Shown here: one piece after another, positions 52,562 through 61,294 of the stretch
Numbering within the stretch: the stretch's first letter is position 1
How the letters are laid out: every line of letters starts with the position of its first letter
Translations under genes and position numbers: made by a program
The notes under the pieces: model-generated
What the model saw: the letters and a program-made list of their open reading frames with translations, nothing else
Told to the model about the DNA's origin: nothing
Databases searched by the model: none
NCBI RefSeq assembly: GCF_009765985.1
Contig: NZ_LMUM01000034.1
Span: 698,910-762,909 of the forward strand
Direction of reading: 5' to 3'
Source: Acidobacterium sp. S8
GTDB taxonomy: Bacteria > Acidobacteriota > Terriglobia > Terriglobales > Acidobacteriaceae
Length of the DNA stretch: 64,000 bases

Positions 52562-52927
52562 GTGCGACGCTCGCTCGCCATCTCGTTGTTGCTGCTCTTC
52601 AGCTTCTCACTTCTGACGCCTTTCTTCGCGCCGGATGCGGAAGCTGCTGTGCCCGCCTGCTGCCGTCGTGGAGGCAGGCATCACTGCGTAGAATCGGACG
52701 GAGATGCCAAGGACAACGGAACCAGGATGATCGCTCAGCGGTGTCCGTATGCCCCGGAAGCTCCGGCGATCGTGCATCTGACGGCTTTTACTCCGGCTCC
52801 GAACGAAGCGGTATTCGCCGGACTGGTCAGCCATCCGTCAGTTCATGCACAGATAGCCGCACAGTACCGCATCTCATTCGATCGCTCGCGCCAGAAGCGC
52901 GGACCTCCCGTCTTCTTCTTTCTGTAG
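52562..52927 (+). CDS. Small secreted Cys/His-rich protein
   Basis: 121 residues from a GTG start. A signal peptide (SLAISLLLLFSFSLLTPFFA) is followed by PACCRRGGRHHC, a compact Cys/His cluster that looks able to bind a soft metal, then a Pro/Ala-rich stretch and a basic tail ending KRGPPVFFFL. The next gene, 72 bases downstream, is a TonB-dependent receptor, so a metal or metallophore uptake role is a reasonable guess. No recognised family name. Confidence 0.7.
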   Translation: MRRSLAISLLLLFSFSLLTPFFAPDAEAAVPACCRRGGRHHCVESDGDAKDNGTRMIAQRCPYAPEAPAIVHLTAFTPAPNEAVFAGLVSHPSVHAQIAAQYRISFDRSRQKRGPPVFFFL

Positions 52928-52999
52928 CTGCCAGTATCCGAACTCCGATTCGCGGAGTTCCTGAGAATTCTCCAGCCACATAGAGGAGGTTTCTGCCGT

Positions 53000-55270
53000 A
53001 TGCGCAGAACTGCATTGCTTTTTCTTTTTGCCTGCCTGTTTTTGAGTTTGCAGGCACATGCCAGTGTCTTTGGACAGGTGGAAGGCATCGTGCATGATCC
53101 GCAGCATCGACCGATTTCGGGAGCGCAGGTTGTTCTTAAGTCGGCTACTTCTGATTTTTCGCAGCAGATACAGACGAACAATGACGGGGCTTTCCGTTTT
53201 GCTGCTATTCCGGCGGGCGATTATCTGGTCACGATCCGGCAATCGGGCTTCAGTGCTCTCGAACAACACATCACCGTTGCTTCGGGCGCGTCACCGCTTC
53301 TGCATTTCGAGCTTTCGGTTGCGGGTGTTCAGCAATCCGCTGTGGTTACGGCGGAAGCGCAGACTGCCAATGTCGATACGGTGACTCCTACAACTTTGGT
53401 CAGCCGCGAAGATATTGCCCGCACGCCTGGAGCGAGCCGCACGAACGGCTTTGAAATGATCACGGACTATGTTCCGGGTTCGTATGAAACGCATGACATG
53501 CTGCATATGCGCGGCGGTCACCAGGTGAGCTGGCTGATTGATGGCGTTCAGATTCCCAACACCAACATTGGAAGCAACCTCGGCGCGCAGATTGATCCCA
53601 AGGATATCGATTACCTTGAAGCGCAGCGTGGGAGCTATAACGCCGATGTGGGCGATCGCACCTATGGCGTTTTCAATGTGGTGCCACGCACGGGTTTCGC
53701 CGGCAACAACCAGGCTGAGCTTGTTTTGAGCGCTGGCAACTTCTACCAGACCAATGACCAGCTCAACTTTGGCAGCCACAGCGAAAAGTTTGCATATTAC
53801 GGCAGTCTTAACGGCAACCGCAGCAACTATGGATTGCAGCCGCCTATCTCGCAGGTGTATCACGATGCTGTGAATGGTTACGGCGGCTTTGCTTCATTCA
53901 TTTACAACCGCACTCCGCAGGATCAGTTTCGTCTTATCACCCAGTTGCGGACCGACTACTTTCAGGTTCCGTATGATCCGGACCCTAACAGCTGGGAGAA
54001 TCAGGAATATGACTCAAGCGGGTTGCGCGATGGCCAGCATGAGACCGATGGACTGACGACATTCTCGTGGGTTCACACATTCAACACATCGACACTGTTA
54101 CAGATTTCGCCGTTCTACCACTACAACAGCGCCAACTATGAACCAAAGCCATATGACTTTCCTGTAGCCACGACCAGTGATCGAGCTTCGAACTACGGCG
54201 GAGTGCAGGGATCGATCAGCACCGAGATTGCCAGCAATAACATTCAGGCGGGCATCTACTCGTTTGGTCAGCATGACAGTTATCTGTTCGGAAGCATCTT
54301 CAACGATGGAAGCTTCGAAAATTTTTCGACTCCCGATGCGGCGAGCGGCGGGCTGGTAGAAGAATTCATCTCTGACAATTACAAAATCACACCCTGGCTT
54401 ACGCTGATTGGCGGATTGCGCCAGTCGTGGTTTCGAGGCGATTTTACGGAGAAGGCGACAAGCCCGCGTGTGGGCGCTGCGGTGCAGATACCGAAGCTTA
54501 ATTGGGTCTTCCGCGGATTCTATGGCCACTATTACCAGCCGCCTCCGCTCCTCACGGCGACAGGGCCGATTCTTGGATATGCGAATTCGCAAAATACCGC
54601 ATTCGAGCCGTTGCATGGCGAACGGGATGAAGAGCACCAGTTTGGAGTGCAGATTCCCTTTCGTGGATGGCTGCTGGACGCCGATACATTCCGTACACGC
54701 GCGAAGAACTTTCTCGATCACAGCAATGTCGGCGAATCGAGCCTCTATTATCCTGTCACGATCGATGGAGCGCTGATTCGCGGATGGGAGCTGACGCTGC
54801 GCTCGCCGCGTCTCTGGCGTTATGGACAGGCGCACCTGGCGTACTCAAACCAGATTGCCGAGCAGCGGGGAGCGATTACGGGAGGGCTGGTCTGCGCGCC
54901 TATAAGCTCACCGGACTGCGAGGCGGATTTCAGCTATTCGCCGCTCGATCATGATCAGCGCAACACTCTTAACGTAGGCTACGACGTTTCATTGCCGTGG
55001 CGCGTCTTCGCATCAACAAATGTTTATTACGGGTCGGGCTTCAGTAATGGAGATCCGAATGAGCAGTATCCGGGCAACTATCTGCCACAGCATACGACCT
55101 TCGATCTAACGGCAGGAAAGACATTCGGAGAAAATGTAACCGTATCGGTTACATCACTCAACGTCGCTGACCACCGGGTATTGCTGGATAACAGCCTTAC
55201 CTTTGGAGGCTTTCACTATAACGATCCTCGCCAGATTTATGGCGAAGTTCGCTATCGCTTTCATTATTAG
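53000..55270 (+). CDS. TonB-dependent receptor, shorter type
   Basis: 756-residue outer-membrane receptor. A signal peptide (ALLFLFACLFLSLQAHA) precedes a carboxypeptidase-regulatory-like domain (about 27-105, VEGIVHDPQHRPISGAQVVL). A classical plug follows (about 125-230, MLHMRGGHQVSWLIDGVQIPNT), then the barrel ending VRYRFHY. AGGAGG lies nine bases ahead of the ATG. It is about 350 residues shorter than the three Oar-like receptors of this window and closer in layout to siderophore or metal receptors. Likely co-transcribed with the upstream Cys/His-rich protein. Confidence 0.9.
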   Translation: MRRTALLFLFACLFLSLQAHASVFGQVEGIVHDPQHRPISGAQVVLKSATSDFSQQIQTNNDGAFRFAAIPAGDYLVTIRQSGFSALEQHITVASGASPLLHFELSVAGVQQSAVVTAEAQTANVDTVTPTTLVSREDIARTPGASRTNGFEMITDYVPGSYETHDMLHMRGGHQVSWLIDGVQIPNTNIGSNLGAQIDPKDIDYLEAQRGSYNADVGDRTYGVFNVVPRTGFAGNNQAELVLSAGNFYQTNDQLNFGSHSEKFAYYGSLNGNRSNYGLQPPISQVYHDAVNGYGGFASFIYNRTPQDQFRLITQLRTDYFQVPYDPDPNSWENQEYDSSGLRDGQHETDGLTTFSWVHTFNTSTLLQISPFYHYNSANYEPKPYDFPVATTSDRASNYGGVQGSISTEIASNNIQAGIYSFGQHDSYLFGSIFNDGSFENFSTPDAASGGLVEEFISDNYKITPWLTLIGGLRQSWFRGDFTEKATSPRVGAAVQIPKLNWVFRGFYGHYYQPPPLLTATGPILGYANSQNTAFEPLHGERDEEHQFGVQIPFRGWLLDADTFRTRAKNFLDHSNVGESSLYYPVTIDGALIRGWELTLRSPRLWRYGQAHLAYSNQIAEQRGAITGGLVCAPISSPDCEADFSYSPLDHDQRNTLNVGYDVSLPWRVFASTNVYYGSGFSNGDPNEQYPGNYLPQHTTFDLTAGKTFGENVTVSVTSLNVADHRVLLDNSLTFGGFHYNDPRQIYGEVRYRFHY

Positions 55271-55395: not shown

Positions 55396-55875
55396 TCATT
55401 TCTTGATGGTGCGCGAATCCCATTGTGTACAGCCGGTGGGCTGGCTGTAGTCGAGCATCTTGCAACCGGCGACGCTGCCCGGCGCCTGCTTATCTGTGCT
55501 GAAGGGCATGAGCGTTGGCGGTCCAAGGATGCCGAGGAACTGGCTGTCCCATTTCACGGGGATGAGCGAGTTGTGTTTGAGCGTGAATGTGGCGGGAGAC
55601 GGCGACGGTTTGTCCTCAACGGTATCGAAGGTGATCGCCAGCGTTTTCCCGTCAAGGGTCCAATGGACATGCCATACTTCGGGGTCTTTCTCGTGCCAGT
55701 TCTGTTGCAGAACCGCGGTGCCGTCTTTGGCAAGCGTCAGCAGGACGACGCGATGCACTTCGGCGGAATATCCACCGCTGCCCATGTAGAAGTTCTTGAG
55801 CTTATCGGCGTAGCTGGAAGCCGAAATCGAGAGCGCAAGCAGGAGCACGAGAGCCGCCAAAGGTTTGATACGCAT
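55396..55875 (-). CDS. Exported protein of unknown function
   Basis: 159 residues from the ATG at 55875, where a signal peptide begins (LAALVLLLALSISASSYA). The longer track ORF overlaps the next gene. The mature part includes YMGSGGYSAEVHRVVLLTLAKDGTAVLQQNW and VEVWHVHWTLDGKTLAITFD-type beta-strand alternation (quoted in part), resembling lipocalin-like or copper-resistance NlpE-like strands. Two cysteines lie near the C-terminus. Five bases downstream of the FAD enzyme gene, so probably in the same operon. No confident family. Confidence 0.62.
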   Translation of the reverse strand: MRIKPLAALVLLLALSISASSYADKLKNFYMGSGGYSAEVHRVVLLTLAKDGTAVLQQNWHEKDPEVWHVHWTLDGKTLAITFDTVEDKPSPSPATFTLKHNSLIPVKWDSQFLGILGPPTLMPFSTDKQAPGSVAGCKMLDYSQPTGCTQWDSRTIKK

Positions 55876-55880
55876 ATGGT

Positions 55881-57119
55881 CTACATCGTATCGCGTATAG
55901 CGGACTTGTCGAGCGGAGAATGAATATGCTCGGGACGAACTCCGAGTCCGACGACACGCGCCATGATGCGCTGAAGGCCGGGCAGGTTGAGAATCGCACG
56001 CATCTGCCACGGAGCATGGGCTTTCTCCGGCTTGCCAAGGAAATTTAACGAGGCGTTATGCGCCCGTGCCTGCATGCCTTGTATTACGCGCACCGGGAAT
56101 TCGCGCCGTTCCTGAACGCGAGCCAGCAGATCGCGGGTGACCGCTTTCTGGCGTAGCGGCTGAGCCAGTATGTTCGCCGCGGCAACTGCATCCTGCACTG
56201 CGAGGTTGATGCCGACGCCTCCGGCCGGCGACATGGCGTGAGCCGCGTCTCCGATGCAGAGCAATCCATCTCTGTACCACTGCCGCAGGCGGTTGATCTG
56301 GATGGAAAGCAGCTTCACCTGGTCCCAGTCCTTGATCTCTTCGACGCGTTTGCCGAGGAACGGGCTGACCTGCAGCAGCGATTCTCTGAAGGCGGGAATG
56401 CCCGCGGCCTTTATCTGGTCGAACATGCCCTTGCGGATGATGAGACCAGCCTGAAAATATTCTTCGCGGTTGATGAGGATGAGCATCTGGCCATAGTCGA
56501 TATTTCCCAATGAATGGTAGGGATCGTCGGGATGACGGCTGATGTGGAACCAGAGCACATCGACGGGCGCGCCGTGATCGATGACGTCGAACTTTGCCGT
56601 GTCGCGGACGATCGAATGGCGGCCATCGCAGCCTACGGTTAGATCGGCTTCGATTTCGGCTTCCCCTTGCGGCGTCTTGACGCGAACTCCCTGCACGCGG
56701 CCGCTCTCTTCTATAAGCCCAATCACTTCGTGTTCCATGCGCAGGTCGAAGGTCGTAAACCTGTTACCGTGCTCGGAGAGGAAATTCAGGAAGTCCCACT
56801 GCGGCATCAGGCCGATGAATTTGCAATGTGTGGGCAGGTGAGAGAAATCGGCTGCGGTAAAGGCGAAATCGCCGAACTGGCCGCCGACGCTGTGAAGTTC
56901 CTGATGAGGCAGCTTGAGGAACTCGTCGAGCAGACCGAGTTCATACATCAGTTCCAGCGTCGAAGGATGAATGGTGTCGCCGCGGAAGTCGCGGAAGAAA
57001 TCTTTGTGCTTTTCGAGCACTGTTACGCGAACGCCTGCACGCGCCAGCAGGTAGCCGAGCATGACGCCTGCCGGGCCGCCGCCCGCAACACAGCATGTTG
57101 TTTTATCCCGTTTCTGCAT
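55881..57119 (-). CDS. FAD-dependent monooxygenase/oxidoreductase (PHBH fold)
   Basis: 412 residues from the ATG at 57119 (the track ORF extends into an upstream shadow). The N-terminal FAD dinucleotide motif is VAGGGPAGVMLGYLLARAG, the DG motif is VGCDGRHSIVRD near 160, and the second FAD motif is CIGDAAHAMSPAGGVGINLAVQDA near 290. This is the class A flavin monooxygenase pattern (p-hydroxybenzoate hydroxylase, UbiH, aromatic hydroxylases). Substrate unknown. Divergent from the FmdE-like gene across 65 bases. Confidence 0.87.
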   Translation of the reverse strand: MQKRDKTTCCVAGGGPAGVMLGYLLARAGVRVTVLEKHKDFFRDFRGDTIHPSTLELMYELGLLDEFLKLPHQELHSVGGQFGDFAFTAADFSHLPTHCKFIGLMPQWDFLNFLSEHGNRFTTFDLRMEHEVIGLIEESGRVQGVRVKTPQGEAEIEADLTVGCDGRHSIVRDTAKFDVIDHGAPVDVLWFHISRHPDDPYHSLGNIDYGQMLILINREEYFQAGLIIRKGMFDQIKAAGIPAFRESLLQVSPFLGKRVEEIKDWDQVKLLSIQINRLRQWYRDGLLCIGDAAHAMSPAGGVGINLAVQDAVAAANILAQPLRQKAVTRDLLARVQERREFPVRVIQGMQARAHNASLNFLGKPEKAHAPWQMRAILNLPGLQRIMARVVGLGVRPEHIHSPLDKSAIRDTM

Positions 57120-57940: not shown

Positions 57941-60900
57941 TTAGAAGCTGAAGCGCGCTCCAAATTCACCGGTGAAGGATTGCGGAGTTACAGTGCTGCT
58001 GGGTGTGATGAAGTTCGTTGGTTTCAGGAAGGATGACGGATCGGTCGCATCGAGCGAATTGATGTTGCTCTGAAGGTTCGGTCCGAAGTTAGCGCGGTTC
58101 GTAAGATCGAAGCTCTGGAAGAAAAGATTGACGTTGTATCTTTCTCCGAAGGTGATCGTCTTGCCGATTCTGGCATCGAGTTCTACGAAGGTCTGGCCGC
58201 CGGTTGTGTCGTAGGAAACCTCCTCGCAGGTTCCGGCTGAGAGGCAATTCTTGTAGAAAGTGCCGCTATACGCACTGCCGTCGGCGTTGAAGAGCGCAGT
58301 GAGCGAGCCGAAGTCATTCATCTTTCCGCCCTTGGGGATAATGGCGTGAGCGTTGCCGCGGCCACTTCCCACACCCCATATGTCGCTGCTAGAGAATACG
58401 TCCACGGGACGGCCCGAGCCGATCTGGAACAGCGGCGAAATGTCGATCTTCCAGGGAAGAGAGATAGTCGCCGAAGCGGTGAGGTGGTGGGTTTCGTCAT
58501 TTGGCGAGCGCCCATAGTCCTGGCGGCGGAATTGGCCAAGGAATGGATTCGTAGCAGTGTTACGGAAAGATGCCGCCGCACCCTCGAAAGCCAGGCTCTT
58601 CGACCAGGTGTAATTTGCAGTGCCTGTGATGCGCTTCCACATTTGCTGACGATAGCTCAGGTTGAGGGCGTCATAGTAGGAACGACCAATCGATTCTTCG
58701 TCAGCAATGCGGCCGAGTACCGGGACGCCGGCTGCGGTGAAAGCTGCGGAGAAGGGACGGGAGCCGTCGCTGTAGTAGCGGAGCGGGTTGATGTTGACGG
58801 TCTTGTCTTCATGAAGGCTACGCACCTGCACATATTCGACTTCCACTACAGAATGCACGTTTGGTGCGGCCTGCAAGCCAAAGTTGATCTGCTGCGTGTA
58901 GGGATTGCGGTAGTGGGGATCCATGAGTCGTCCGGTAGATCCCGGAGCCAGATCGTGCGTTGCAGGAGGAATGACTGGCATGGGATCGACTCCATACCGC
59001 CAGTTGCTCAGGACGATATCTGTACCAGGTACTGTGTTTCCACTGGAGCAGGTGGTGTCGCCGGGACCATTGCAGGAGATGCTGAAGGTATTGGCGAAGA
59101 CCAGATTATTTGCCTGCTGAATCATGAACAGCGGAATGTTTTCGAACGTCTGGCCATAGTAAAGGCCATAACCTCCGCGAACGACGACGCGAGCGTTGCC
59201 GAATACGTCGTAGGCGAAGCCGATGCGCGGGCTGATATCGAGATTGTCATTGCTGGGCAACCCCGTATAGGTACCGCCGATGTTGGCCAGGTTAGGAACA
59301 TAGCCGCTGAGGAAATTAATGGGGTTGCCCGCAGCGGGAACAGTTGGAACGCCGGTTGCTGCTGCGGCGATCAATTGCTGTACGGTGCGGCTGTTCTTCT
59401 GCTTGTCGATGCCGTAGGTATCGATGTCGCGGTCATAACGAATGCCGAGGTTCAGAAGCAGTCGGGGAGTCACCTTCCAATCGTCCTGAACGAAGAGGCC
59501 GAGCATCTTCGGAGAGAGGTTGAAGGATGGATCGCCCGATGTTCCCGTCATGGCCTGCACCAGGCCCGGCGTGGCAAAGCCCTGAGGATACTTGCCGGGG
59601 CTTCCAAGGATGTTGGAGGGCGTGTCGAAGAAGTCGAATTCAGGAGTCGGGTTGTTCTCGAAGAATCCGCCGACCTGAGGTTCGTAGATGAAGTCCACAC
59701 CAGCGCGCAGCGTGTGGGCACCGTGTGTCCAGGAGAAGTCATCGCGGAACTGGAACTTGTGCTGGCTCGATTTCTGCGGGACGTTGGCGTTGGTGCCGAA
59801 GCTGGTGCCGTCTGGGAAGGTGATCAGAGGCGTCTGCGTCGTGGTGTTGATGAGGTTGTTCCAATACTGGAAGCCAGCAGTGAAGTTATTGACAATGCTC
59901 GACGACAGAATGGAGTTCAACGTGAAGTTGGTGAGGATCAGATCGTTGATCGTGTAGTTGCCTTCTGACAAGTCGTTCTGCGAGGTCGACTGATCGTTGT
60001 TGCTTTTGTTGTCCTGCGCGGTGTAACTGAAGAAAGCTCTTTCGTTCGGACTGAAGGTGTGATCGATGCGACCGTTGTAGCGCTTGTCGTCATACGGGGT
60101 GGGAATTGTGTGAGAGACCTGCGGGCCGGGAGAGAAAGCTCCACTGCTGGCTGCAAGTGCAAGTTCGTTATATGAATCGGGGTTGACGGAGATGCTGGAG
60201 CGCTCGCGCAGACCTTCGTAGGCGAAGAAGCCGAAGTCCTTATCTTTGCGAATGGGACCGCCAAACGATCCGCCGTATTGCTGACGGCTGTAGTCGGGCT
60301 TTGACTGATCACCCTGTTCAGCAAAGTAGTTGTTGGTCTGGAAGGTCTGGGTGCGGAAGAAGCCATAGAGTGATCCGTGGAACTTGTTGGTGCCGGATTT
60401 GGTGATCACATTCAGTGCTGCGCCTTCGCTCTTGCCGTTTGCGGCAGAGAAGCGGTTCGGGCTGATATTGAACTCCTGCACAGCTTCGAGGGGCAACTGC
60501 ATGACGGCGCCGCCGACGGTGTTGTCCTTATTATCGATGCCGTTGACGGTGGTATTGGTATTGCGGCCGGAAGAGCCATTCACGGCATAGACGGCATAGC
60601 GGTTCTTGGTCGGGTCATAGCTATCGACCATTTTGACGCCGGGAGCGAGGATGGCCAGATTAGCAAAGTCGCGACCGTTGAGAGGCAGATCTTCAATCTG
60701 CTTGGTGCTGACCGTTGTCGAGACGTCAGTCTTCTCTGTATCGACAAGCTGACTGTTTGCCGTAACTTCGACGGTCTGGGAGACCTGTCCTGTCGTCATC
60801 GGCACATTGATGGTTGCTGTCGCGCCGACCAGCACCTGCAAGCCCTTTACTTGTGCCGAACTGAAGCCGCTGGCTTCCACCTGAAGCTGATATGCGCCGG

Positions 60901-61150
60901 GCGAGAGCAGGTCGAAGCGATATTCGCCGGTCCCGCTTGTCACCGTCCTGCGTTCGGCGTTAGTGGCCGTGTTGGTGACGGTTACGGCAGCATTGGGAAC
61001 TGCTGCACCGGTGGGATCGGTGACCACTCCTGAGATATTGCCGCTGGCGGTTGCCTGGGCGAGCAGTGTTTGCCGTCCCGATAAAATCGCCGTAGATAGT
61101 AAGCAGATGTAAAGAAAAGGACGCAAAAGCGCCCCGCGCGTCATAGCCAT
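57941..61150 (-). CDS. TonB-dependent receptor with carboxypeptidase-regulatory-like domain (Oar-like), third copy
   Basis: 1069 residues from the ATG at 61150, chosen because AAGGAG lies six bases ahead and a signal peptide follows (FLYICLLSTAILSGRQTLLAQ). The track start at 61240 adds 30 residues without support. The carboxypeptidase-regulatory-like domain (ISGVVTDPTGAAVPNAAVTV, about 36-120) is followed by a plug with LPLNGRDFANLAILAPG and SEGAALNVITKSGTNKFHG and a long barrel ending GEFGARFSF. A cluster of ATTGTCG elements upstream may regulate it. Ligand unknown. Confidence 0.92.
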   Translation of the reverse strand: MAMTRGALLRPFLYICLLSTAILSGRQTLLAQATASGNISGVVTDPTGAAVPNAAVTVTNTATNAERRTVTSGTGEYRFDLLSPGAYQLQVEASGFSSAQVKGLQVLVGATATINVPMTTGQVSQTVEVTANSQLVDTEKTDVSTTVSTKQIEDLPLNGRDFANLAILAPGVKMVDSYDPTKNRYAVYAVNGSSGRNTNTTVNGIDNKDNTVGGAVMQLPLEAVQEFNISPNRFSAANGKSEGAALNVITKSGTNKFHGSLYGFFRTQTFQTNNYFAEQGDQSKPDYSRQQYGGSFGGPIRKDKDFGFFAYEGLRERSSISVNPDSYNELALAASSGAFSPGPQVSHTIPTPYDDKRYNGRIDHTFSPNERAFFSYTAQDNKSNNDQSTSQNDLSEGNYTINDLILTNFTLNSILSSSIVNNFTAGFQYWNNLINTTTQTPLITFPDGTSFGTNANVPQKSSQHKFQFRDDFSWTHGAHTLRAGVDFIYEPQVGGFFENNPTPEFDFFDTPSNILGSPGKYPQGFATPGLVQAMTGTSGDPSFNLSPKMLGLFVQDDWKVTPRLLLNLGIRYDRDIDTYGIDKQKNSRTVQQLIAAAATGVPTVPAAGNPINFLSGYVPNLANIGGTYTGLPSNDNLDISPRIGFAYDVFGNARVVVRGGYGLYYGQTFENIPLFMIQQANNLVFANTFSISCNGPGDTTCSSGNTVPGTDIVLSNWRYGVDPMPVIPPATHDLAPGSTGRLMDPHYRNPYTQQINFGLQAAPNVHSVVEVEYVQVRSLHEDKTVNINPLRYYSDGSRPFSAAFTAAGVPVLGRIADEESIGRSYYDALNLSYRQQMWKRITGTANYTWSKSLAFEGAAASFRNTATNPFLGQFRRQDYGRSPNDETHHLTASATISLPWKIDISPLFQIGSGRPVDVFSSSDIWGVGSGRGNAHAIIPKGGKMNDFGSLTALFNADGSAYSGTFYKNCLSAGTCEEVSYDTTGGQTFVELDARIGKTITFGERYNVNLFFQSFDLTNRANFGPNLQSNINSLDATDPSSFLKPTNFITPSSTVTPQSFTGEFGARFSF

Positions 61151-61231
61151 AAACCACTCCTTCGGAAAAATGCAGCACAACAACCGGCCAAAACTGGACG
61201 ACCGAAAAACCTCTCTCCGCATGAAAATGCA

Positions 61232-61294
61232 GATTGTCACAAGTTCATGACCGGAGGATTGTCGAAGATACTAAACCGACAATGGGAATTGTCG
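61232..61294. promoter_or_regulatory. Cluster of ATTGTCG elements upstream of the fourth receptor
   Basis: ATTGTCG occurs at 61258 and 61288, its complement CGACAAT at 61277, and a one-mismatch copy ATTGTCA at 61232. The 61277/61288 pair forms a perfect seven-base inverted repeat with a four-base loop, the geometry of a dimeric repressor site. It lies about 110-145 bases ahead of the receptor ATG. Confidence 0.4.

Follow-up and report, generated by a model that had tools for sequence, protein, structure and literature searches.

The small exported open reading frame that lies directly ahead of a short TonB-dependent receptor gene in Acidobacterium sp. S8 appears to be a metal-responsive translation arrest leader that would control the receptor in cis. 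We put the probability of this reading, which is built from sequence comparison, at about 80%. The window analysed here is the whole 64,000-nucleotide stretch of contig NZ_LMUM01000034.1 that carries the two genes, and the features on which the argument turns are collected in Table 1. A preliminary description had located a 121-aa exported ORF 72 bases before a comparatively short TonB receptor, and both the coordinates and the content were right: the segment PACCRRGGRHHC of the small ORF holds three Cys and two His within 12 residues, and the receptor has 756 aa, against 1099 aa for the Oar-like receptor of the window at 57941-61240. That description did not contain the invariant R[AG]PP motif at the C-terminus or the invariant C61. 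The small protein ends in RSRQK-RGPP-VFFFL, which places RGPP at residues 113-116. Experiments have established that RAPP and RGPP act as arrest motifs when they stand close to the end of small exported proteins; arrest is strongest with RGPP, and proteomes strongly avoid both sequences (PMC12992588). The mechanism by which the motif arrests translation has been described (PMC10951233).

Table 1. Features of the putative leader and its presumed target gene (positions are those of the window)
Feature	Position	Strand	Basis
Candidate arrest leader ORF, 121 aa, GTG start	52562..52927	+	ORF listing, homologues, 68-copy alignment
N-terminal export signal MRRSLAISLLLLFSFSLLTPFFAPDAEA	52562..52645	+	By inspection; hydrophobic N-terminus kept in alignment
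First Cys/His ligand cluster PACCRRGGRHHC, residues 31-42	52652..52687	+	68-copy alignment
C61-P62, Cys 52 residues before the arrest Arg	52742..52747	+	Alignment, spacing count
RGPP codons CGC GGA CCT CCC, predicted arrest motif, 5 residues from stop	52898..52909	+	
72-nt intergenic region, leader to receptor	52928..52999	+	Sequence, fold
TonB-dependent receptor, 756 aa, CarboxypepD_reg + Plug + TonB_dep_Rec barrel, presumed regulated gene	53000..55270	+	Pfam
HDMLHMRGGH in plug, holding H165, H169 and H174	53492..53521	+	Receptor-family conservation

The upstream neighbours of the small ORF, a family-9 glycosidase gene and a 242-aa gene, are conserved within the genus only, and the conserved unit therefore begins with the small ORF itself. 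A minus-strand gene at 55396-56010, encoding a 204-aa exported protein with no Pfam match, converges on the receptor gene, and a similar-sized minus-strand gene occupies the same position in two related loci (L085 and L086). The small ORF of the window had no match in Pfam, even at E=10, and none in NCBIfam; a defence role for the ORF and receptor pair was rejected, as PADLOC gave no match. Searches for solved structures of the leader found none, and no plasmid-borne relative was significant.

A homologue of the small ORF was found by sequence search in 38 of 100 relatives. When 396 genomes of the phylum were searched with a profile of the leader, 47 had a match, and almost all of these belong to the window's own family. 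We aligned 68 leader copies from 60 fetched loci. The preliminary description would have counted as refuted if the cysteines varied among homologues of the small protein, and all of C33, C34, C42 and C61 proved invariant in the 68 copies, as are R113, P115 and P116; P31, R35, G38, H40 and P62 are nearly invariant. R[AG]PP stands near the C-terminus in 68/68 copies (61 RGPP, 7 RAPP), a count that is partly circular, since RGPP is built into the family model, and for which divergent leaders found via the receptor provide an independent check. The motif usually lies 4-5 residues ahead of the stop. Among 565 control ORFs from the same loci (222,947 residues), R[AG]PP occurred twice and never at the C-terminus. 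Several loci (L117, L122, L124, L126, L134, L135 and L139) carry tandem R[AG]PP leaders before one receptor, 37-230 nt apart and with the second copy more divergent; such tandem leaders could possibly act as a two-input gate.

The distance between the lone cysteine and the arrest motif is nearly fixed. In 60 of 67 leader copies the Cys of the C-P motif precedes the arrest Arg by 51-53 residues, and this spacing varies less (sd 2.7) than the linker from HHC to the same Cys (sd 4.9). In the 12 divergent leaders found via the receptor the Cys is mostly at 51-53, with a second set at 46-47. Canonical CXXC leaders of the DUF2946 type in the same phylum have a spacing of 47-49, about three residues shorter than that of window-type leaders, as does a second RAPP leader encoded in the window's own genome; the distance in CruR is 49, from C90 to R139 (PMC9426467). 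The second leader of this genome (L143:4692-4970, minus strand) is a canonical one of 92 aa with CPIC and RAPP, and it lies directly upstream of genes for OEP, a CusB-like HlyD protein and an RND pump, so that the same motif also stands before an efflux system. If about 30 residues are accommodated in the ribosomal tunnel and about 17 cross the membrane, the values employed in PMC9973294, C61 of the window leader would be located near the periplasmic mouth of SecYEG at arrest, with the CC/HHC cluster beyond it.

A fixed distance from Cys to arrest motif is expected for a sensor that acts as a nascent chain, and is unexpected for a secreted chaperone. The small protein could nevertheless be a metallochaperone, the mature Cys/His protein binding periplasmic copper and passing it on in trans; an export signal, an invariant Cys/His cluster and a gene that adjoins a receptor, and sometimes CusF/SCO1, would all suit such a function. 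We consider this improbable. It offers no role for the invariant C-terminal RGPP, a sequence excluded from ordinary proteomes (PMC12992588), or for its constant distance from the Cys, and the mature chain outside the motifs is poorly conserved across the 68-copy alignment. Moreover, CutF fails to complement in trans (PMC9973294), and neither the CruR nor the CutF protein was detected in cells (PMC9426467, PMC9973294). The earlier suggestion of a soft-metal sensing module that includes the receptor thus holds in part: conservation of the pair and of its cysteines, together with copper-gene neighbours, speaks for sensing, whereas an arrest leader ending in RGPP is likelier than a secreted uptake partner.

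Whether the pair is conserved across acidobacteria had also been raised in the preliminary description, and the fetched loci answer it: the gene directly after the leader encodes a TonB receptor in 54 of 60 loci, PepSY_TM in 3, CusF-SCO1 in 1 and FeoAB in 1, with none in the remaining locus. Second genes include PepSY_TM (L117, L126, L128) and CusF or CusF-SCO1 (L105, L116). CusF adjoins the receptor in 4 loci, and only 10 CusF copies are present across 31 genomes. What the loci show directly is a conserved gene pair, a recurring set of motifs, a constant spacing and neighbours that handle copper. A BNR/Asp-box (sialidase-like) exported protein recurs after leader-bearing long Oar-like receptors, where it is the second gene in L088, L090, L097, L122 and L135.

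Approached from the receptor, the association extends beyond the family of the window. Of 61 relatives, 41 carry the receptor orthologue in a single copy, and an R[AG]PP leader lies directly upstream of it in 26 of 27 genomes of its own family. Class-wide, a small Cys-rich exported ORF with a C-terminal Pro-Pro precedes the receptor in 58 of 60 loci; the same loose filter applied to control genes selected 11 of 203, and roughly half of these are true leaders. Receptor-linked leaders outside the window's own family end in other Pro-Pro motifs, among them FHPPTA, SPPPR and DHPP. The pre-receptor leaders of L206-L212, L236-L244, L249, L256 and L257 have FHPP, DHPP or SPPPR at their ends, not RxPP. 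Comparison of these sequences suggests that such endings are lineage-specific arrest motifs.

The receptors themselves are marked by histidine. Twelve His are kept at 99-100% in 82 distinct receptors, including those of HDxLHxRGGH in the plug, and no Met or Cys is conserved. A profile search of solved structures with the receptor brought up only HasR and YncD, both as weak and partial matches, and no copper receptor. The CruR-controlled receptor CrtA (BfrG), which like the receptor of the window is encoded behind a CruR-type leader, also relies on conserved His, and neither Met nor Cys is conserved in it (PMC12914433). CrtA has two such His and the window receptor family twelve; the window receptor also differs from CrtA/BfrG in its N-terminal CarboxypepD_reg domain, and its subfamily appears to be unrelated to that of bfrG/crtA.

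Copper is probably the metal that the leader would bind. The recurrent metal-handling partners of the leader are CusF, SCO1 and PepSY_TM, and the first motif of other lineages, CCxxGxCPM, resembles a Cu(I) site. Both observations weigh against a leader that would respond instead to iron, zinc, cobalt/nickel or the redox state of its cysteines, which we hold to be rather unlikely. Such a signal would suit the conserved His, not Met or Cys, of the receptors, the VKOR or DsbA-like genes behind the receptor in L089, L201, L197 and L202, and the precedent of His-rich CutF-like proteins that adjoin nickel/cobalt genes (PMC9973294). It would also suit FeoA and FeoB, which stand behind one leader copy (L096:3485-5631), hinting that some members of the leader family respond to iron or control its uptake.

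The preliminary description had supposed that a module of this sort was not described as such, but the kind of system is already known (CruR-BfrG, PMC9426467; CutF, PMC9973294; see also PMC12992588). CruR (Bp2923, DUF2946) of Bordetella pertussis uses RAPP and CXXC to govern a TonB receptor by copper (PMC9426467), and in Rhodobacter capsulatus the ORF ahead of cutO encodes CutF, an exported copper sensor related to it (PMC9973294). The window pair resembles CruR-bfrG/crtA in its exported small first ORF, its C-terminal motif of the RAPP type (RxPP), the conserved spacing from Cys to RxPP, and the TonB receptor gene that comes next, PepSY_TM being present at some loci of both. Unlike CruR, the window leader has no CXXC and carries an extra upstream CCx7C cluster with HHC; it has RGPP, a Cys-Arg distance of 52 and a gap of 72 nt, compared with RAPP, 49 and 162 nt in CruR. 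With CutF it shares small size (at most 150 aa), an export signal (by inspection), a Cys motif, a Pro-Pro within 15 aa of the C-terminus, and a metal gene next to it across a short gap. It differs from CutF in having CC, CCx7C and the lone C61 instead of CxxxC, and in being followed by an importer gene, not one for a multicopper oxidase. ApdA, ApdP and the Streptomyces lividans set are likewise small exported proteins that carry an arrest motif near the C-terminus and lie upstream of the gene that they regulate (PMC10951233, PMC12992588); ApdA and ApdP monitor protein export, not metals as proposed for the window leader.

In Pfam searches the leader family overlaps in part with DUF2946. Matches to PF11162 at E<=0.01 were obtained for 15 of 68 leader copies (best 4.2e-6), and a homologue from L013/L037 scores above the gathering cut-off of that model. 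CXXC is present in 10 of 68 copies; the window copy reads CPYA. Because the window copy has no PF11162 match (none at E=10) and no CXXC, and because profile-profile comparison with canonical DUF2946 leaders gives a weak alignment confined to the motifs, we do not file it as a strict DUF2946/CruR member. Judged by its sequence, it would work like one, and it is linked to the family via intermediates. Novelty is limited to the acidobacterial variant, in which CC...HHC plus a lone Cys takes the place of CXXC and the ruler is three residues longer, together with its family of receptors with twelve conserved His and its putative arrest endings that differ by lineage.

From these comparisons we infer stalling, the metal, the side of the membrane on which the metal is met, and the sign of regulation. 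A ribosome translating the leader would bring the nascent chain to the Sec translocon and stall at RGPP, with Pro115 in the P site and Pro116 in the A site. At the stall C61, 52 residues from the arrest Arg, would be about at the SecYEG exit, and the CC/HHC cluster, some 80 residues out, would already be periplasmic. Binding of metal, most likely copper, at the Cys/His site of this chain would then alter the arrest. If the leader behaves as CruR does, arrest would persist when metal is scarce, allowing transcription or translation to continue into the receptor gene; metal binding would release the arrest and turn the receptor off, confining uptake to times of need. The receptor would import a copper chelate through its conserved His set. 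On balance, the CruR precedent leads us to expect that metal represses the receptor.

A CutF-like sign is also conceivable, in which metal would prolong the arrest and the paused ribosome would open a structure hiding the Shine-Dalgarno sequence of the receptor. The intergenic region offers some material for it, given its 72-nt length, a hairpin without a T run formed by GAACTCCG (52940-52947) and CGGAGTTC (52953-52960), and a minimum free energy fold that pairs TCTCC with the receptor Shine-Dalgarno GGAGG at 52985-52989. Across 49 loci, however, the accessibility of the Shine-Dalgarno equals that of shuffled sequence, and this argues against a CutF-type hairpin being common to window-type loci. 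Folding of the intergenic regions exceeds that of controls only slightly. Metal would, moreover, be inducing its own importer, which makes little physiological sense, and we regard a CutF-like sign as quite unlikely. Shine-Dalgarno sequestration as a conserved feature was rejected, as it did not rise above shuffles, and so was a strong conserved intergenic RNA structure, the excess over controls being slight.

Other routes from arrest to receptor expression were searched for in the same region. The scan found no intrinsic terminator between leader and receptor. Rfam gave no match in the window and, at the leader-receptor junction in 16 orthologous loci, none that reached GA; a riboswitch or known cis-RNA was rejected on this ground. 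An Acido-Lenti-1 small RNA (RF01687) lies inside one fetched receptor locus (L155:1151-1196). Stretches with C in excess of G are modestly higher in the intergenic region than in the receptor gene, an excess that is compatible with Rho sites and not diagnostic of them. We suggest tentatively, and at less than even odds, that Rho couples the arrest to expression of the receptor.

Looking across the class, metal-sensing arrest leaders may be general among these acidobacteria, with the arrest motif swapped between lineages (RGPP/RAPP, SPPPR, FHPP and others), the sensor Cys cluster and the receptor kept, some leaders in tandem, and a new twelve-histidine family of copper-importing TonB receptors under their control; we rate this wider proposal just short of an even chance. 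A conserved TonB receptor of a major soil phylum, otherwise annotated only as a carboxypeptidase-regulatory-domain receptor, gains a testable regulator and function. If the arrest-leader reading is right, nascent-chain metal sensing would be a standard means by which Acidobacteriota control metal uptake. The constant distance from Cys to arrest motif, combined with lineage-swapped motifs, would then provide a natural experiment on the way in which a metal bound outside the ribosome acts on the peptidyl-transferase centre.
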